Below the pieces are notes generated by a model. That model saw only the letters and a program-made list of their open reading frames with translations. It did no database searches and was not told the origin of the DNA. The position numbers were made by a program, and so were the translations under genes. Shown piece by piece: positions 20,847 through 41,372 of a stretch of 54,102 nucleotides of DNA. Each line of letters starts with the position of its first letter. Within the stretch, counting starts at the first letter, position 1. Source of the stretch: Marivivens donghaensis (GTDB lineage Bacteria; Pseudomonadota; Alphaproteobacteria; Rhodobacterales; Rhodobacteraceae); the NCBI RefSeq assembly GCF_011806565.1, contig NZ_JAATOP010000015.1, positions 1 through 54,102 of the forward strand, written 5' to 3'.

Positions 20847-20922
20847 GCCTCTATAGCTCAGCTGGTAGAGCGTCTGATTTGTAATCAGAGGGTCGGGAGT
20901 TCGAGTCTCTCTGGGGGCACCA
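20847..20922 (+). tRNA. tRNA-Thr (anticodon TGT)
   Basis: A complete cloverleaf is visible: acceptor GCCTCTA/TGGGGGC with two G-U pairs, D arm, anticodon stem TCTGA/TCAGA with loop TTTGTAA (anticodon TGT), and T arm with GTTCGAG. The encoded CCA (20920-20922) follows discriminator A20919. The last 15 bases region (20909-20923) is the attachment site of the island. Insertion leaves the gene intact because the element carries an identical 3' end. Confidence 0.95.
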
Positions 20923-20979: not shown

Positions 20980-21009
20980 GGGACACAAATCGGGACACAT
21001 TCGGGACAC
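20980..21009 (+). repeat. Left GGGACAC array (candidate integrase arm-binding sites)
   Basis: GGGACAC occurs at 20980, 20992 and 21003, spaced 12 and 11 bp, about one helical turn apart. The same order and spacing recur at 27743-27772 near the other end. The array lies just before the integrase start (21015), so binding could also repress the integrase. Confidence 0.7.
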
Positions 21010-21014
21010 TTTGA

Positions 21015-22361
21015 ATGGCTTTGATACTAAGAATGAAATACGTAGGCACACTGAGCGGTGGTCGTAAACGGTTCCGCAGGCGTTTCCCTAACGACGTAAT
21101 TAAGGTGCTCGGAAGGGAATACTTCCAAGTCGCAATGAAGGCGCGAGACGGGGCGGACTTCCACACGGAGTACGCAAAGCTCTTAGGTTAATACGATGAG
21201 GTCTGCCGTCGAGTGCTTCGAACGACAGAGGACGAGCAGAACGTACCGCCTCTAAAGCGCTGGGCCGAACTTCAGGAACAAGCCGCTGAGTTGCTCGCGG
21301 GGGTGCATGGCGCTCGTGATGAGGATGAAGCCCGAACGATACTCGCTGACGATCTTGAAGCGAGAAATGCTGACACGGCTCTCTACTCGGCAGTTCAAGG
21401 TCCTAGCAACAGACCAGATGTGACGCTGCTCGACGTCAAAGAATTGTACCGACAGGAGCGTGTCCACGACGACACCAAAGATCATCAGAGGCTTGATCGT
21501 ATCTTCGCTCGTATTGAGAAGGCGATAGGGCCTTTGAGTGCGGTTAAGCTCAAAGAACTAAAGCGCGAACACGCTCGAACGACACGAGACTACTACCTGA
21601 CGATGAAGAAGAAGAACGGTGAGTTCTTGGCGGTCAACTCCATCAAGCGTGAGTTTAAGACCATCAATGCCGCGATCAATCTGGCGCTCGTTGAAGATGA
21701 CCTCAAGGGGAAGGTCGCCAATCCGTTCGAGCATTTGGTTGTAGTAAGGCAGGGCGATACTGAGGTGGCCGAACACGAACAGCGTGACCCTCTTCCGAAG
21801 GATGTCATCCTTTCTATGCGGATACATATGGAGAGAAAGGTCAAGATACCTGAGTTGCGCCTAATCTGGACCCTCCTCGAGGGCACGGGGTGCCGCGTGT
21901 CGGAGGTCGTAGGTCTTCGGGTCGAAGATGTGGTCTTAGAGGGAGCTTACCCTCATCTACGGGTTGTCTCGCATGATGGCCGCCGCTTGAAAACCAAGGT
22001 GTCCAACCGCTTGGTTCCCCTTGTTGGCGAAACTCTAAAGGCCGCTCAAGAGGCCGTCGTCCTTGCCGGTGGCGCAGCTAATTTGTTTGAACGCTACGCT
22101 GCCGATGGCAAATCTACTGCGGTCTCAAAAGCTCTGATGAATTACCTCCGCAACTACACCAAAGACCCGAAGCACGTAGTCTATTCACTGCGGCACAACA
22201 TGAAGGACTACTTGCAAAGCGCAGGGGTGCCTGAGCGCGACGAGCACCGCATTCTGGGCCATTCAGAGGCCAATATGGGTGATAGGGTATATGGTGGTGG
22301 AGAGGCCCGTCTAAGGGCCGCCTACGAGGCTATGCAAAAAGCTCACGCTTGGATGCCTTAG
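21015..22361 (+). pseudogene. int: Tyrosine recombinase integrase interrupted by an ochre codon
   Basis: From ATG 21015 the frame reads MALILRMKYVGTLSGGRKRF onward for 58 codons and then meets TAA at 21189-21191. The same frame continues (YDEVCRRVLRTTEDEQN) to 22361 without any shift. The C-terminal part has the tyrosine recombinase residues: first Arg in GTGCRVSEVVGLR, Lys in RLKTKVSNRL, SLRHNM, ILGHS and the nucleophile Tyr in GDRVYGG. One base change restores a 448-residue integrase. Translation restarting at GTG 21213 would give a 382-residue protein without the N-terminal arm-binding region. It may be non-functional, or may be a reading-through or split form. Confidence 0.85.
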
Positions 22362-22681
22362 AGCAAGACAACATGCTCGCACTCTGTTTTAACAGATTGG
22401 CATCCACCTGCGGGCATGGCTCTGATTTTCAGACGTTTGGTCGAGTTTGAAAACGGCGGTGCCGTCAATCTTGCGCACATTGATTGCGAATAACAGGCAT
22501 CTGTTTGGCTAGCTATTTTCCGCTTAAGTGCATGATTTTAAATTACTAACGGAGATCTAGCTGCGGGGTGGGGCGATTGACCCACCCAATTGAATAGATA
22601 CGAACCATCTGTCGCGACACCTACTTCGGACCGCGACAGGTCGCTCGGGTCTTCTTTCCTCAAGCAGCGAGAAATCTCACA
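22362..22681. other. Non-coding gap after the integrase with repeats
   Basis: No gene is seen in these 320 bp. AAGTGCATGATTTTAAAT (22526-22543) recurs with two mismatches at 27795-27812 near attR. A hairpin GGGTGGG (22566-22572)/CCCACCC (22581-22587) is followed by the 16-mer CCCACCCAATTGAATA (22581-22596), whose exact inverse occurs at 26965-26980. Confidence 0.6.
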
Positions 22682-23662
22682 ATGAAAAATCACCTACACA
22701 ATGCCCGTGGGCAAACGACACCTCGTGCCTACAACACCGCACCCACTTCTCACCTTCACCCAAAGCATCAAAGCCACGTTGAAGTGGCTATCCGAAGCGG
22801 AAGCTTCTCTATTGGGGAACACCTTATTGATTGTTCTGTCCTTCCTAACGGTACGCGAGTGCTATCCGAGCGTTCGGTGCATCGGCTATTTCGTAGCAAG
22901 CGCGGTGGGGCGCACTACCAACGAAAAAAGAAGAATGAGGATGGCGCCTTTTTGCCCTCATATCTTTCCCCTAACAACCTTTATCCCTATATAAACAACG
23001 ACTTACTGGTGGCGCTGAAACAGCCAATTTCCTATCGACAGGTTGTTGGTGGGAAATCAGCAAACGGCCTAAACGCCGAGATGCTTCCCGACATTTGTAG
23101 TGTCTACCTAAGGGCGCGGCGCGCTGGGCGCATCCACTCCAAACAAGTGCATTTTGCAAACCAAGCGGAATTGCTTCTAGAGGCCTTCGCAAAGACTGGC
23201 ATTATCGCGCTCGTTGACGAGGCAACAGGCTATGAGAAGGTTCGGCCAGAGAGGGCGCTGCAAGGTAAGTTCTCAAAATATCTCACAAGGGAGATGCAGC
23301 CATGGCAAAAGACCTTTCCTGATGAGTTTTTCGCGGAGTTAGATCGTTTGCATGGCATGCGGACGACTGCGGGCAATCGCCCCGTCTGCTATGCGGCCTT
23401 CATCAATCGAACTGTATATGACTGTCTCGGAGATGGTGGGCTGCGTTGTCAGATCGAGAAGTTCAATTTCACGCCGAGCGGCAATAGGCGGGGTCGTTCA
23501 CATCAGTGGTTGTCCCAAGAGGGGCGTTTTCTCTTGATTGAGCAGATACAGAAAGTTCTCGAACTCATGACGGCTTGTCGCAATATCAAACACTTCAATC
23601 AAACTTTTGAGCGGCGTCGCAGAGCGGTTCGAGAGCCATACCTCTTCGACTTTATGAACTAG
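22682..23662 (+). CDS. P63C-domain protein of unknown function
   Basis: The 326-residue protein has an early region NGTRVLSERSVHRLFRSKRG and a later region ALVDEATGYEKVRPERALQG followed by KYLTREMQPWQKTFPDEFFA. Both are typical of P63C-domain proteins (PF10546-like), found in phages and islands with no settled function. Basic residues are common, suggesting nucleic-acid contact, but this is weak evidence. The ATG at 22682 has only a poor ribosome site (GAGAAA). Confidence 0.7.
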   Translation: MKNHLHNARGQTTPRAYNTAPTSHLHPKHQSHVEVAIRSGSFSIGEHLIDCSVLPNGTRVLSERSVHRLFRSKRGGAHYQRKKKNEDGAFLPSYLSPNNLYPYINNDLLVALKQPISYRQVVGGKSANGLNAEMLPDICSVYLRARRAGRIHSKQVHFANQAELLLEAFAKTGIIALVDEATGYEKVRPERALQGKFSKYLTREMQPWQKTFPDEFFAELDRLHGMRTTAGNRPVCYAAFINRTVYDCLGDGGLRCQIEKFNFTPSGNRRGRSHQWLSQEGRFLLIEQIQKVLELMTACRNIKHFNQTFERRRRAVREPYLFDFMN

Positions 23663-23701: not shown

Positions 23702-24334
23702 TCACCTCCACACCTCCAACGCCGCCTCTGCCTTCGCCGGGTCGTCCTTAATCCGCAGGACGGCCTGACGGGAGAGACCCGTGGCTTTGGAGATGGAGGA
23801 GGTGCCAGCGCCTTGGCAGAGCATCTCCATTACCACCGATAGCTGCTCACGGTCATAGCTCGGTTTGCGTCCACGGTAACTCTGAGGGTCACGCTCACGG
23901 GCAGCCGCTATGCCAGCCTTCTGCGCCTCCTTCGTGGCTTCTGCCTGCGCCTGTGCCGTGGCAGCCATGAAGGCAATGAGAGCGTCCCTCACGGCCTCCT
24001 GCATGGGGTCTGTGGTGGCTCCGTCGAAGGTGAGGTTGTTGATCACCGTGCGGATGATGACGCCTCGACGCATGAACTCCCTGATGGTGTCCGTCACGTC
24101 CTGATAGTTACGCCCCAGACGGTCCACCCAGCGGACCACGAGCGTGTCACCTCTGCGGAGCATGTCGAACAGCCTACGGCCTTCTTCGCGCTCTCTGAGC
24201 GTCGTGGTGACGCCTGAGGTGCCGTGGTCGGCCACCACCTCCTCAATGACAAACCCTGCGGCCTCTGCCTGAGATTTCTGGTGATCGAGGGTCTGCTCCG
24301 TGGTGGAGACGCGGGCATAGAGAATAGTGGTCAT
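23702..24334 (-). CDS. Serine recombinase (resolvase/invertase family)
   Basis: The 210-residue protein has catalytic S10 in YARVSTTEQ, with R8, R68, D71, R72 and R75 in VVRWVDRLGRN, and a C-terminal Hin-like helix-turn-helix (about 160-200, GTSSISKATGLSRQAVLRIK). The size fits small resolvases or invertases rather than large integrases. Just upstream (24350-24463) lie several TGTCCG/CGGACA half-sites that look like its recombination or operator site. It may resolve dimers of the excised element or invert a segment. Confidence 0.9.
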   Translation of the reverse strand: MTTILYARVSTTEQTLDHQKSQAEAAGFVIEEVVADHGTSGVTTTLREREEGRRLFDMLRRGDTLVVRWVDRLGRNYQDVTDTIREFMRRGVIIRTVINNLTFDGATTDPMQEAVRDALIAFMAATAQAQAEATKEAQKAGIAAARERDPQSYRGRKPSYDREQLSVVMEMLCQGAGTSSISKATGLSRQAVLRIKDDPAKAEAALEVWR

Positions 24335-24349
24335 GGTGCTGTCCAGAAG

Positions 24350-24463
24350 TGTCCGTAAAGGTTACGACCGCTAGATTGACTGTCCGTTGATGAAAGTCAA
24401 CTCTTACGGACACACTTTCGGACAGTCTTCGGGGGTGACCGTTACGGTATACCCTTACGGACA
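24350..24463. promoter_or_regulatory. Candidate res site: five TGTCCG/CGGACA half-sites
   Basis: Elements: TGTCCGTAA (24350-24358), TGTCCGTTG (24381-24389), TTACGGACA (24404-24412), TTCGGACA (24417-24424) and TTACGGACA (24455-24463). Those at 24381 and 24412 face each other as ends of a 32-bp site. The start and end sequences resemble half-sites of Tn3-type resolvases, and the cluster overlaps the recombinase promoter. Confidence 0.6.
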
Positions 24464-24721
24464 AAACGAACAGATCGCGCTAGGGCTGGTCTGCTAAGGG
24501 CGCCTCAACTCAAAATTGCTCTGAGATGGGTGTCGGACAAGTTCGCCAGAGAGATAAGCAAGTTAAGGACACGGCAGTCTTCGTTGACGAAAAGTCGACA
24601 GTTGTGCAATTTATATTTCTAGCGCTTGGCACAGGCCACCGTGCATGATGCAATATCATCAATATTGTACGCCTCGGAGCGAAGTAGAGAGAAATCTGAA
24701 CATATATATGAGGCCGGAAAA

Positions 24722-25333
24722 ATGTTTCCACAATCCGTTCTAATAGGCCTAGTAGTAGCGTTTGTTGGCTACTTTCTCCAACAGAGATCGTGGGGGCACA
24801 ACAAGCGAGAAGAGGTCCGTCAGAGGGAATTTGAGGCGTGCACCAAGACTGTAGAAGAATTAGCACGTGCTGTTGATAAGAGAATTCAAGCTACTGCTGA
24901 ATTTGTCCGAGAAGTGGATATCGGCCAAGTGAGTGACGATGCACTGGAGCGATATAAGGTCAGCGTCAGAGAGTGGATGCACGATTTCTCATACTTTAAG
25001 TCGCGAATTTTTCACTATTTTGGCCATAGCAAAATGGTGGATTTCGAACTCAAAGTTCACTCTAGCATACAATCGGTGGGCGCCATCGCTCTTAGAACAA
25101 AGAAGCTTGGGAAAGATAATTTAAGTGCGGCGCACAAACTAGAGCAAGAAGACGCGCAGAGAAAGCTGCACGTCGCACGCTTTGTTGCCTACGAGTTTAT
25201 TGCTGCACTTGATGAGATGACGGCCAATGAGCAAACATCAAGAGTTTCTTTATATGACAACGTTGACGCTGGACAACTCGACATGATTTCAAGGGTCTAT
25301 CTCGTTAAGAGGCTTTTGAATCTAAAGCCATAA
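24722..25333 (+). CDS. Unknown protein with N-terminal membrane anchor
   Basis: The 203-residue protein opens MFPQSVLIGLVVAFVGYFLQ, a single membrane segment. A charged, largely helical cytoplasmic or periplasmic part follows, with no recognised domain. The frame is open upstream to TTG 24626, but ATG 24722 puts the anchor at the N-terminus and has GAGGCCGG before it. Codon use is AT-rich, unlike the chromosome. It converges with the GT51-like gene and overlaps it by 37 bp. The two may act together, but only proximity supports that. Confidence 0.65.
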   Translation: MFPQSVLIGLVVAFVGYFLQQRSWGHNKREEVRQREFEACTKTVEELARAVDKRIQATAEFVREVDIGQVSDDALERYKVSVREWMHDFSYFKSRIFHYFGHSKMVDFELKVHSSIQSVGAIALRTKKLGKDNLSAAHKLEQEDAQRKLHVARFVAYEFIAALDEMTANEQTSRVSLYDNVDAGQLDMISRVYLVKRLLNLKP

Positions 25334-26034
25334 GCTCGTTGTGCTATTTTGAAGCGAAACTTTATTCGACCGGCCCAGCGCGGCGCAACGTTTTCCGAAA
25401 AATCAATCAAGTCATCTGGATCGAGCAAGGGATAAATGGCCGCGTTACGGTAGCTGTGATAGACTTCTTTAGGGAACGGGAGCGGGAAAAGGCTCGCAAT
25501 AAAGGCGGCTTGTTTCTTGTTTAAATCACAAGCTCTCAAATCAAAAATATTTTTTGATGCGACCTCGCAGCCCTGCATCCGATATCCGAGATATGCATTA
25601 TGAATATAGTAATCGAATATTTCTCTCTTGGAGAGGTGGAGGTTTAGGATAAAGCCTAAGAATATCTCACGCAGCTTACGTGTGATCGACCTTTCGTGTC
25701 GCTTCGTAGCAATTCTGACCACTTGCTGCTCTATTGTGCTTATGCCATTTATTTTTCCTCGACGAAGCAACCGAATAAGTGCGCGAGGAATGGACCGCAC
25801 CTCAAACCCTTTGTGATGATAGAATCTTCGATCTTCCAAATAGAGTATAGCTACTTCTATGTTTGAAGTGGCGTCTGATTTGAGCGGCAAGGAATGACCG
25901 AAGAGATGGCCAAATTCGCTGTTGAGCTCGACGGCGCGATTAATATTGTCCAGCTCTCTATTTAGAGAAAGAAGCGACTTCTTTAAACCAAGCTGGATCA
26001 TCGGTTTGTGAATTCTGGCAAAAGGAATACGCAA
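25297..26034 (-). CDS. GT51 peptidoglycan transglycosylase domain protein without membrane anchor
   Basis: The 245-residue protein contains the GT51 motifs: catalytic E67 in LEDRRFYHHKGF, then ISTIEQQVVRIAT (usual GSTITQQ, with E102), RKLREIFLGFILNLHLSKRE, YIHNAYLG and KKQAAFIASLFPLPFP. This is the lipid II polymerase domain of class A PBPs and MtgA, here stand-alone. Unlike MtgA it has no N-terminal membrane helix or signal peptide, so its location is unclear. It is island cargo with AT-rich codon use. Confidence 0.8.
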   Translation of the reverse strand: MRIPFARIHKPMIQLGLKKSLLSLNRELDNINRAVELNSEFGHLFGHSLPLKSDATSNIEVAILYLEDRRFYHHKGFEVRSIPRALIRLLRRGKINGISTIEQQVVRIATKRHERSITRKLREIFLGFILNLHLSKREIFDYYIHNAYLGYRMQGCEVASKNIFDLRACDLNKKQAAFIASLFPLPFPKEVYHSYRNAAIYPLLDPDDLIDFSENVAPRWAGRIKFRFKIAQRAYGFRFKSLLTR

Positions 26035-26323: not shown

Positions 26324-26791
26324 ATGACGACTTGGCGACCCGCACCCCGCATCCGGTTCAAAGCTCTCGGCCTTCACTGGCGGGAGGGCAAGCTGCTCGC
26401 GAGCGAAGTCCCAGATGATGAAGGCAACGTCACAGGCGTTCGCCCTTTAGGTGGGGCTGTCGAGTTCGGAGAGACGGCGGAGGAGGCCGTCGTGCGGGAG
26501 TTCCGTGAGGAGCTGGACGTCGAGGTGAAGACCCACGGCCCAGCGCTCTATTTGGAGAACATCTACACACACGAGGGCAGCCTCGGCCACGAAATGATAG
26601 CCTTGTTCAACGTCACCTTCACGGACACCGCCTTCGCTGGAGAGACCCGGATTGAGTTCCAAGAGAGCGATGGAAGCTCATGCTTCGCTGAATGGTTCGA
26701 TCTAGAGGAGCTCGACCTCCTCGACGGCCCCCGTCTCTATCCTAATGGGCTCAAGGCTTTATTAGCGGGTCGCCCTAAGCGGGAAAGTTAA
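26324..26791 (+). CDS. NUDIX hydrolase
   Basis: The 155-residue protein carries a NUDIX box at about 44-66: G44, E50, then REFREELDV (58-66). The usual Gly of EExG is Asp (D65), but the metal-binding Glu residues remain. Such enzymes hydrolyse nucleoside diphosphates linked to other groups; the substrate is unknown. It ends with a C-terminal region rich in Leu and acidic residues. The ribosome site is weak. A palindromic AGCTTAAGCT lies about 110 bp upstream. Confidence 0.85.
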   Translation: MTTWRPAPRIRFKALGLHWREGKLLASEVPDDEGNVTGVRPLGGAVEFGETAEEAVVREFREELDVEVKTHGPALYLENIYTHEGSLGHEMIALFNVTFTDTAFAGETRIEFQESDGSSCFAEWFDLEELDLLDGPRLYPNGLKALLAGRPKRES

Positions 26792-26825
26792 TGGCAGCCT
26801 TGGAGTGACGAACCCTTAGGAGATG

Positions 26826-26872
26826 TAAGAGGTGTTCAACTCCTTCATCATCTGGGTCAGCAGCACCTCTTA
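26826..26872 (+). repeat. Inverted repeat downstream of the NUDIX gene
   Basis: TAAGAGGTG (26826-26834) and CACCTCTTA (26864-26872) form a perfect 9-bp stem with a 29-base loop. No T-run follows. It could be a weak terminator or protein-binding dyad. Confidence 0.45.
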
Positions 26873-26903
26873 GGGGTCTAGATAATGGGAGAAGGAGGAG
26901 GAG

Positions 26904-27077
26904 GTCGGCCTCTAACGGGAACCGCTAACATACACCGTTATGTATAACCTTAGCGGGGAGGGCGTATTCAATTGGGTGGGATTATCCCAAGCCACGGAAA
27001 TAAAACACTTTTTTGAGGGTGTTTAAAATGAGTCTCAAACCGACAAAAAAACCAAGCATGGAGCCTCTAAGTGGCCC
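26904..27077. repeat. Non-coding module copy A (13-bp repeats, palindrome, hairpin)
   Basis: In order: three 13-bp units (GTCGGCCTCTAAC, GGGAACCGCTAAC, ATACACCGTTATG from 26904), TATAACCTT, palindrome GGGATTATCCC (26978-26988), AAGCC and GGAAATAAA, small hairpin AAACAC/GTGTTT, an A-run near 27045, and GCCTCTAAGTGGCCC (27063-27077). The same order appears at 27311-27509. A 32-codon ORF at 27028-27126 overlaps it, but copy B does not keep that frame. Confidence 0.6.
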
Positions 27078-27310
27078 TCAGAGCGCCCTTAAAGGAGCAG
27101 CGTTGCTTGGGTGTATGGTTGGGTAGTGAGTGAGCGGCGGCGCATCCAGCCGCTACCAAGCGCTATAAGCGAACCGCACTAGCGAGACCGTTAGAGATAT
27201 CTTTGGCGGGTGGCATGAGAGAGGACTACGAAGAGGTGGTCTCCACCTTCGCTGGCACCCTCACTAACACCTCTACTTTGCTTCTCTTTAGAGGGAGGAG
27301 GTGGAGGAGA

Positions 27311-27509
27311 TGTACCCTCTAGCTGTACCCTCTCACGGGAACCTCTAACTACACCTCTTCTATATAACCTTTTTTCTATCTAGATCATAAGCGTGGGAAA
27401 TTCCCAAGCCTTTGAAATAAATGCATATTTTTCTATGCAAAAACAGGTCAAAAACCCCCCTCCTAACTTGCAAAAAAAAATCGCCAAGCAAGTAGCCTCT
27501 AAGAGGCCC
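27311..27509. repeat. Non-coding module copy B
   Basis: TGTACCCTCTAGC, TGTACCCTCTCAC and GGGAACCTCTAAC (13-bp units, 27311-27349) are followed by TATAACCTT, palindrome GGGAAATTCCC (27395-27405), AAGCC and GAAATAAA. Then come hairpin TGCATA/TATGCA, an A-run, and GCCTCTAAGAGGCCC (27495-27509). It is diverged from copy A but keeps every element in the same order. Confidence 0.6.
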
Positions 27510-27544
27510 GCTTGAGGCCCGCTTGAGGCCCGCTTGAGACCCGC
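27504..27544 (+). repeat. 11-bp tandem repeat AGGCCCGCTTG, 3.7 copies
   Basis: Exact units start at 27504, 27515 and 27526; the fourth is partial with one change (AGACCCGC). The array abuts the end of module B. The period equals about one helical turn. Confidence 0.8.
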
Positions 27545-27742
27545 AGAGGGGTATCTGTGCTTGCTGTGGGTCGGGCAATAGAAGGCCCTTGCGGCTTCTC
27601 AGGGTAGGCTTTGAGAGTCTCTGTTAGCGTCTCATGCCTTAGAGGTCACTTAGGTGAGATGTCTGACCCAGACTATCGGCTCCAACTCATTGCCAGATGC
27701 GAGCCAAAGCTCCTATTGCGCTTGTATTAGTCAAGCCAATAT
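27510..27742. other. Gene-free right part of the island
   Basis: Apart from the tandem repeat at its left edge, no ORF with a plausible start, RNA gene or repeat was seen here. Confidence 0.5.
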
Positions 27743-27845: not shown

Positions 27846-27860
27846 CTCTGGGGGCACCAT
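27846..27860 (+). repeat. attR: 15-bp core CTCTGGGGGCACCAT
   Basis: Exact copy of the tRNA-Thr 3' end at 20909-20923. Sequence to the right (174 bp to the next gene) is probably the original chromosomal DNA downstream of the tRNA. Confidence 0.85.
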
Positions 27861-39671: not shown

Positions 39672-41372
39672 ATGCCCGCGAAAATCTCCCGCGCCACCTA
39701 TGCTGACATGTTCGGACCGACGACCGGCGATAAGCTCCGTCTGGCCGACACCGACCTGATTATCGAGGTCGAGAAGGACTTCACCACCTATGGTGAAGAG
39801 GTCAAATTCGGCGGCGGCAAAGTCATCCGCGACGGCATGGGCCAGTCGCAGCGCACCCGCGCCGAAGGCGCCGTCGACACCGTCATCACCAACGCGCTGA
39901 TCGTCGATCACACCGGTATCTACAAAGCTGACGTTGGTCTGAAAAACGGCCGCATCGCTGGCATCGGCAAGGCGGGCAACCCCGACACCCAGCCGGGCGT
40001 GAACATCGTCATCGGCCCCGCTACCGAGGCCATCGCGGGCGAGGGACGTATCCTCACTGCGGGCGGTATCGACAGCCACATCCACTACATCGCGCCGCAG
40101 CAGTTCGACGACGGGCTGCATTCCGGCGTCACCACGATGATCGGCGGCGGCTCGGGCCCTGCCCACGGCACGCTGGCGACGACCTGCACGGGCACGTGGC
40201 ACATCGGCCAGATGCTCCGCGCGTTCGACGGCCTCCAGATGAACACCGGCATCGCGGGCAAAGGCAACGCAGCGCTCCCCGCTCCGTTGAAAGAGATGAT
40301 TAGCGCGGGCGCGTCGTGTCTGAAACTGCACGAAGACTGGGGCACCACCCCCGCCGCCATCGACAACTGCCTGACCGTGGCGGACGAGATGGACGTGCAG
40401 GTGATGATCCACACCGACACGCTGAACGAATCTGGCTTTGTCGAGAACACCGTTGCGGCGATGAAGGGCCGCACCATCCACGCCTTCCACACCGAAGGCG
40501 CGGGCGGCGGTCACGCGCCGGACATCATCCGCGTCTGCGGCGAGCCGAACGTCATTCCGTCCTCGACCAACCCGACGCGCCCCTACACGGTGAACACGCT
40601 CGAAGAGCACCTAGACATGCTGATGGTGTGCCACCACCTCGACCAATCGATCCCCGAAGACGTGGCCTTCGCCGAAAGCCGTATCCGCAAGGAAACCATC
40701 GCGGCAGAGGATATCCTGCACGACATGGGCGCATTCTCGATCATCGCGTCCGACAGTCAGGCGATGGGCCGCGTCGGTGAAGTGCTGATCCGCACGTGGC
40801 AGACCGCGCACAAGATGAAAGTCCAACGCGGCCGCTTGGCCGAGGAGCAGGGCGCGAACGACAACACCCGCGTCAAACGCTACATCGCGAAGTACACCAT
40901 CAACCCCGCGATCGCGCACGGCATGTCCAAGCACATCGGCAGCATCGAAGTCGGCAAGCGCGCCGACCTCGCGCTCTGGTCGCCTGCGTTCTTTGGCGTG
41001 AAGCCGGAAATGGTTCTGCTTGGCGGCACCATCGCTGTGGCGCAGATGGGTGACACCAACGCCTCGATCCCGACCCCGCAGCCCGTCTACAGCCGCGCGA
41101 TGTTCGGCGGCTTTGGCGGTGCGCTTCTGGCAGGCAGCGTGACCTTCGTGTCCAAGGCCGCTTACGAGGCGGGCGTCGGGCAGGGGCTCGGCAAAGAGGT
41201 TCTGCCGGTCGAAAACTGCCGCAACATCGGCAAGGCGGACATGGTGCACAACAGCCTCATGCCCAAGGTCGAGGTCGATCCCGAAACTTACGAAGTCCGC
41301 GCTGACGGTGAACTTCTGACTTGCGAGCCCGCATCGGAGCTTCCGATGGCGCAGCGCTATTTCATGTTCTGA
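39672..41372 (+). CDS. ureC: Urease alpha subunit (catalytic)
   Basis: The 566-residue protein has the nickel site: HIHYIAPQQ, carbamylated K218 in [25 protein letters not shown], and the flap MVCHHLDQS with C320, H321 and H322. This is the catalytic subunit. The start [20 protein letters not shown] is canonical. ureE follows by 15 bp. Nothing suggests damage. Confidence 0.95.

Follow-up and report, generated by a model that had tools for sequence, protein, structure and literature searches.

What does an ordered block of non-coding DNA do that occurs twice, in diverged form, in the gene-free part of a genomic island of Marivivens donghaensis? A first-pass annotation of the window (the whole stretch of 54,102 nucleotides analysed here) had offered three answers: iteron-type replication origins, control regions or a pair of small structured RNAs. 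The control region proved the best fit. We consider it probable that the modules are regulatory sequences derived from the right end of the genome of a T7-like phage (an autographivirus) and persist in a family of small islands integrated at tRNA genes, where their use would be driven by a helper; the phage origin itself is well supported.

Module copies in three tRNA-integrated islands

Two related module copies are present at 26904-27077 and 27311-27509, with the sequence that had been described. Local alignment of 26904-27125 with 27311-27578 gave a score of 49, whereas 1000 dinucleotide-preserving shuffles averaged 17.6 and never exceeded 30. A blastn comparison of the island with itself returned one match of 44 bp at 84% identity and one of 36 bp at 83%. 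Searching the host genome with module DNA revealed copies on contigs C17 and C8 (locus coordinates L009 and L010, respectively), in both cases at tRNA genes. A sequence-only model of 94 positions (R1), running from the first repeat through GAAAT, found six copies in the host genome, two each in the window, island C17 and island C8; because R1 was built from those six, it confirms them and the lack of a seventh and is not a discovery of them. One C8 copy is diverged and shorter (L010 13526-13595), leaving five full copies. Under stricter filters R1 found no copy in 393 other genomes, which places the module in one of 394, and module DNA had no match in 100 relatives.

The ordered layout that had been proposed holds in part. 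All five full copies keep the CCTCT-type repeats, TATAACCTT, a G(G/C)GTGGGA box, the A-run and a GCCTC..GGCCC stem, while GAAATAAA and a short hairpin (identified by eye) are features of the two window copies and not of all five. The module extends further to the right than first described, because the stem that opens with CCAAGCA (27052 and 27485) closes with TGCTTGG or TGCTTG (27104-27110 and 27558-27563). The first-pass annotation read the module on the plus strand, whereas the phage sense is the minus strand. Our preferred explanation does not account for the function of the ~13-bp repeats.

Table 1. Features of the window island and its modules
Feature	Position	Strand	Remarks
tRNA-Thr (attachment site)	20847..20922	+	tRNA 3′ end recurs at 27846-27860
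Tyrosine integrase, main part	21213..22361	+	PF00589, 2.5e-9
Third promoter-like box, GCGATTGACCCACCCAATT followed by GAATAGAT	22573..22599	+	toward P63C gene; predicted start near 22592; leave-one-out score 20.4
P63C-domain protein	22682..23662	+	PF10546, 1.2e-13; phage family phrog_2384, 3.1e-81; candidate target of third box
Small serine recombinase	23702..24334	-	PF00239, 3.1e-26; common to the three islands (also in C17 and C8)
NUDIX hydrolase gene	26324..26791	+	PF00293, 5.9e-10; common to the three islands (also in C17 and C8)
Copy 1, CCTCT/CTAAC repeats (~13 bp) and TATAACCTT	26909..26953		93.3% identity with island C17
Copy 1, T7-class phage-promoter-like box, GGGATAATCCCACCCAATT followed by GAATACGC	26962..26988	-	one of eight boxes; predicted start G near 26969, from the LUZ100/T7-class alignment
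Copy 1, terminator	27045..27110	-	stem CCAAGCA/TGCTTGG, inner GCCTC hairpin, T-run 27051-27045; z -2.41
Copy 2, CCTCT/CTAAC repeats (~13 bp) and TATAACCTT	27315..27372		from module comparison
Copy 2, T7-class phage-promoter-like box, GGGAATTTCCCACGCTTAT followed by GATCTAGA	27379..27405	-	predicted start near 27386
Copy 2, terminator	27473..27563	-	expanded by tandem GCTTGAGGCCC units; T-run 27481-27473; z -2.12; best fold is a shifted stem

The window island, located at a tRNA-Thr gene, encodes an integrase, a P63C protein, a serine recombinase, a protein of an unknown family, a transglycosylase-domain protein and a NUDIX hydrolase (Table 1). The integrase is apparently split, with a 58-residue start frame (21015-21191) and an in-frame stop just ahead of the main frame. 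GGGACACAAATCGG repeats at 20981 and 27744, close to both attachment sites, are possibly integrase arm sites. The TGTCCGTAA and TTACGGACA repeats at 24340-24465, which adjoin the serine recombinase gene and are common to the sister islands, are likely the recombination site of this enzyme. The 245-residue protein encoded at 25297-26034 has a transglycosylase domain of the penicillin-binding-protein type (PF00912, 5.2e-34), an unusual cargo for an island. Elsewhere in the window, Rfam identified a 5′ ureB small RNA on the minus strand at 39824-40113 (RF02514, 136.5 bits).

Island C17 lies at a tRNA-Arg gene, with repeats at L009 11358 and 19236 and its own integrase; island C8 lies at a tRNA-Leu gene, with a partial tRNA copy near L010 14100-14141 (by eye) and no PF00589 match for an integrase. 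The window and C17 are 94% identical over 774 bp in the recombinase gene and 87% identical over 1319 bp from upstream of the NUDIX gene through both modules. For C8 the corresponding figures are 93% for the recombinase and 81% over 713 bp for the NUDIX stretch, and a single full module is shared as well. Recombinase, NUDIX gene and module signals are common to the three islands, and the cargo is variable and partly anti-phage. By model names, the C8 cargo (L010 4773-10480) comprises a type IV restriction enzyme, a KAP ATPase with some PifA similarity and PDC-M36A, and the C17 cargo includes sce7725/sce7726 proteins and a RES-domain protein. As expected of phage satellites, the window and C17 have an integrase and attachment repeats, and no virion proteins were recognised among the scanned proteins (seven in the window, eight in C17, nine in C8), apart from the C17 terminase fragment and the KAP ATPase of C8, which weakly matched a small terminase (E 0.001). 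Downstream of NUDIX relatives (28 loci in 28 of the 393 other genomes), no module was found among the matches listed.

Promoter-like boxes and intrinsic terminators

The GGGAnnnTCCC palindrome of the module sits inside a box of ~20 bp with the consensus AATWAWCCCACCCTATT followed by GA (core boxes are also written CCCACCCTATTGA). Eight boxes were gathered by their CCCAC core: 26988 and 27405 (minus strand) and 22573 (plus strand) in the window, 12339 and 11922 (plus strand) in C17, and 12542, 13587 and 13988 (minus strand) in C8. Their leave-one-out scores ranged from 15.0 to 31.7 (n=8). Outside the boxes, the highest score reached in the window, L009 and L010 was 15.3; at 15.0, the weakest box (L010 13988) does not rise above this background and is therefore assigned by position alone. 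Pattern TCAANNGGGTGGG had seven matches in the host genome, five of them inside islands, and its reversed control had none. The looser pattern CCCACNCNNNTGA was unspecific (20 host-genome matches, seven inside islands; seven for the control), and AWTNANCCCACCCNANTGA, which was written from the boxes and fits two of the eight, had three matches in 305 genomes, two of them in island C8. No sigma-70 promoter was found within 26780-27700.

T7-class promoters consist of an AT-rich block, a specificity block, a four-base melting block and an initiating G at fixed spacing. The boxes show this layout, CCCACCC following the AT-rich part and a G standing four bases further on. In a comparison with phage promoters, the eight boxes in one fixed register gave 91 of 144 matches to T3 (60 in the next register), 83 to K11 (next 46) and 67 to SP6 (next 43). 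Offset 2 was common to these three phages, and T7 was tied between two offsets with 68 matches. Taken singly against T3, three of the eight boxes reached p < 0.03 and five had p > 0.1.

A further comparison was made with the Pseudomonas phage LUZ100 (OP329100), a T7-like member of the Autographiviridae with temperate features, whose start sites were mapped by ONT-cappable-seq (PMC10134795). LUZ100 promoters resemble the boxes in having an AT-rich block, a CCAC block, a few bases and then a G. Seven of the eight LUZ100 promoters, trimmed by eye, were compared, phi5 being left out because its printed bases lack the motif. Forward register 1 scored 7.6, and all other registers and strands scored -88.2 or less. 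The joint fit had a column-permutation p of 0.0008 (5000 trials), and each box in that register had a p between 0.0002 and 0.0096; with register and strand free, single boxes gave p values of 0.003 to 0.11, three of the eight exceeding 0.05. Judged by sequence, the boxes are likely promoters for a single-subunit phage RNA polymerase, with predicted activity.

The part of the module consisting of the A-run plus GCCTCTAAGnGGCCC is well supported as an intrinsic terminator on the minus strand. On this strand all five full copies have a GC-rich stem followed directly by a T-run (a U-run in RNA), downstream of a gene, with z-scores of -2.41, -2.12, -2.13, -3.16 and -5.05, and in L010 the stem begins ~10 bp past the stop of the tail gene. 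Across the stem, 81.9% of cells pair, compared to 31-54% when the partner is slid, but covariation does not exceed that of shuffles. The C17_2 and C8_2 stems fold about equally on both strands, so that there the strand is assigned by the T-run rather than by folding energy. A simple terminator scan reported two other sites and missed the module terminators, probably owing to their large branched loop. The tandem GCTTGAGGCCC units (27509-27545) that enlarge the loop of the second window terminator are absent from the other copies.

Terminase and polymerase remnants beside the modules

The C17 gene abutting the module encodes the fragmentary C-terminus of a T7-like large terminase (best listed phage match E 3e-6), and its tblastn matches fall in terminase genes, many of them near the right end of T7-like genomes. 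In IMG/VR a peptide pattern matched 112 stretches, of which 93 encode relatives and 80 were kept; a DDRLDALSMAVAYWTEQM-like core was present in all 80, a few dozen residues before the stop, and the exact 21-residue DDRLDALSMAVAYWTEQMAQD in 45. Six weak matches of the fragment in the 393 other genomes (E 5.7e-4 to 0.008) were judged to be due to chance. In the window no terminase can be recognised; by eye, a degraded trace is all that is left of the tail.

In C8, the 15-residue tail of the C17 terminase fragment (GQPAGAPxRGRKRRR) recurs and closes a frame that begins as the N-terminal domain of a T7-like RNA polymerase, so C8 joins a polymerase start to a terminase end. The first 200 residues of this frame matched phrog_414 (6.2e-33) and residues 32-226 of T7 polymerase (4.7e-13). 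The DNA similarity between C17 and C8 breaks off at ...GCGGGCTGTCC. Since the modules adjoin the T7-like terminase tail, they occupy the place of the right end of a T7-like genome. Boxes of the same orientation stand at standard places for phage promoters: L010 13587, within the diverged sixth copy, lies upstream of the C8 polymerase fragment, and the module boxes lie past the terminase tail in L009 and L010.

The polymerase fragment matched four of the 393 other genomes, two with full-length or near full-length frames or contig ends (G023 and G225) and two with short frames (G022 and G373). The short frame of G022 lies near a tRNA-Leu(CAA) gene, a MarR-like regulator and an integrase end, and it adjoins genes that by eye also flank C8. 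A further short polymerase N-terminal frame, with an in-frame KVNPKVNHEV repeat ahead of it, was observed at L065 9005-9400, and AAAGGTTAAGTT repeats are found upstream of the C8 polymerase fragment (L010 13474-13510); these repeats are possibly operator repeats.

The annotation of LUZ100 (OP329100) places phi1 directly upstream of the polymerase and phi8 between terminase and terminal repeat, overlapping terminator T20, and has a tRNA-Leu, an integrase and a MarR-family regulator together. The islands resemble this order of terminase, T20, phi8 and terminal repeat in having modules past the terminase tail and the diverged copy ahead of the polymerase fragment. This positional agreement with phi8 and phi1 is independent of the sequence comparison. 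The impression that no described family has such a plan has thus to be given up, for terminase, terminator, promoter and terminal repeat form the annotated right end of LUZ100. A LUZ100-like temperate phage at tRNA-Leu(CAA) is a plausible ancestor, as we infer from these parallels. In contrast to LUZ100, which has no blastn match to module DNA, the islands carry two tandem modules, 13-bp repeats and a NUDIX gene in convergent orientation, and their scanned proteins include no structural or replication genes.

Searches for a helper phage covered several collections. Module DNA had no blastn match in 50,697 phage records, and R1 had none in 84 loci (four phages and 80 IMG/VR contigs). DNA patterns gave nothing convincing in IMG/VR and no match in the genome-contig collection, and neither collection yielded a close relative of the polymerase fragment. 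The nine loci on viral contigs that carry TCAATAGGGTGGG..TCCC had one box each, tblastn detected no polymerase N-terminus in them, and they were judged to be chance matches. No phage-type polymerase catalytic domain (PF00940) was detected in the host, in a search whose controls were also silent.

Predicted use of the modules and competing readings

According to the explanation we favour, each module read on the minus strand would present an intrinsic terminator, a promoter for a single-subunit phage RNA polymerase and a leader with the ~13-bp repeats. The polymerase of an infecting T7-like phage would initiate at the boxes, and the right-end signals would permit helper-driven transcription of the island and possibly its replication and packaging. 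The solitary box at 22573, whose predicted start lies 90 bases ahead of the P63C start codon, would turn on the P63C gene in infection. P63C relatives occur in 45 phage records, and in Salmonella phage SPN9CC the relative overlaps the end of cI in the sieB neighbourhood. Prophages often keep exclusion genes in this cI/sieB neighbourhood. The cargo of C17 and C8 has no similar box upstream, and P63C is not covered by any PADLOC model. The solitary box may render P63C infection-inducible.

The islands would be satellite-like derivatives of an unseen T7-like phage, and their mobilisation by a helper is offered as an open proposal. A fuller scheme, in which a family of T7-phage satellites keeps the right-end promoter, terminator and packaging region for transcription, copying and packaging by the helper, and in which the helper promoter triggers the P63C defence gene upon infection only, is tentative and, as a whole, rather unlikely. 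No satellite of a T7-like phage was reported in the titles or abstract openings listed from the open-licence literature. Among known satellites, the PICMI of Vibrionaceae are described as small islands of marine bacteria and satellites of virulent phages (PMC10803314), a likeness to the islands studied here. The parts retained here are T7-like right-end sequences, unlike PICMI, for which the text of PMC10803314 lacks the terms 'terminase', 'podovir' and 'autographiviridae' and has one passage on 'RNA polymerase', concerning a primase. The antiviral hotspots of P2/P4-like elements (PMC9122126) likewise place variable anti-phage cargo in a satellite backbone; the present islands differ in their apparently T7-like helper type and signals, with no capsid-control gene recognised among the scanned proteins.

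Defective-interfering deletion genomes are a known class of deletion derivatives. C8 resembles them in joining a polymerase start to the last 15 terminase codons, as if all between had been deleted, but unlike them it carries cargo and has a tRNA gene as its integration site.

A possible alternative, although we regard it as somewhat doubtful, is that the modules are a phage-type replication origin or a packaging end (concatemer junction) and not a gene promoter, a reading that overlaps with our own. The position past the terminase is that of LUZ100, where the terminal repeat lies beyond phi8, and the ~13-bp repeats adjoin the box; however, neither a terminal-repeat boundary nor a nick site or initiator was recognised. 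Right-end promoters of T7-like phages can also serve as origins, so the iteron-type origin first suggested is conceivable; repeats are present, and no replication initiator was recognised among the scanned proteins. Other candidates were rejected. As to an oriT or an origin of plasmid type, a blastn search of 72,556 plasmids returned a single match, ascribed to chance (E 0.8), and the 16 records matched by L010 12200-14150 all did so at its tRNA-Leu end. The MOBQ-like nick core GCGCCCT was dropped as weak, and a resolvase recombination site was discarded because the recombinase has its own adjoining TGTCCGTAA repeats (by eye), unlike the module.

It is unlikely, in our estimate, that the modules are only a fossil, the inactive remains of a T7-like prophage decaying at tRNA genes and replaced by cargo. 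The terminase and polymerase are fragments, the window terminase trace is nearly gone, short polymerase N-terminal frames occur in two of the 393 other genomes (one beside tRNA-Leu(CAA)), and the second terminator has only 59% identity between the window and C17, all as decay would predict. Conversely, the recombinase (dN 0.008, dS 0.217) and the NUDIX gene (dN 0.053, dS 0.243) are under purifying selection between the window and C17. The repeats, boxes and first terminator of these two islands are 92-93% identical, compared to 79% and 46% for the stretches between box and terminator; the contrast is partial, as the 112 bp ahead of module 1 (92%) and the inter-module spacer (87.5%) are also similar. 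The same end is moreover kept by three different islands, C8 having one full module. The conservation pattern, read from two sequences with this partial contrast, leans towards current function.

An operator, in which TGGGAnnnTCCCA would be the dyad for a dimeric island repressor, is improbable. Both window copies and both C17 copies show the dyad clearly, and it gives the opposite strand of the module boxes box-matrix scores of 11.8 to 20.2, as a repressor site might; but on one side conservation (CCCACCCNNNTGA) continues well past it. Moreover, C8_2 has a weakened dyad, and C8_3 and the box at 22573 have lost theirs, although all three retain the remainder of the box. A pair of plus-strand small structured RNAs can be virtually dismissed: on the plus strand, three of the five segments are more stably folded than their shuffles (z -2.06, -3.63 and -5.07), but the window segments fold poorly on this strand (z -0.74 and -1.74) and better on the minus strand, where in all five copies a U-run follows, covariation is no higher than in shuffles (0.104 vs 0.089, sd 0.018; 110 of 500 shuffles at or above the observed value, from five sequences only), and Rfam had no match at the module at gathering thresholds. 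Two outcomes named beforehand as counter-evidence, a lack of compensatory support and of relatives in the 393 other genomes, were indeed obtained, and they bear on this RNA reading.

T7-like phages are among the best-studied phages. If the islands are satellites of such phages, as the favoured explanation suggests, a phage polymerase promoter would act as an infection sensor for cargo genes, and islands with T7-like terminase ends and promoters, lacking virion genes, provide a recipe for finding more. If this is true, an infecting virus may turn on, copy or package the very island that is fighting it.
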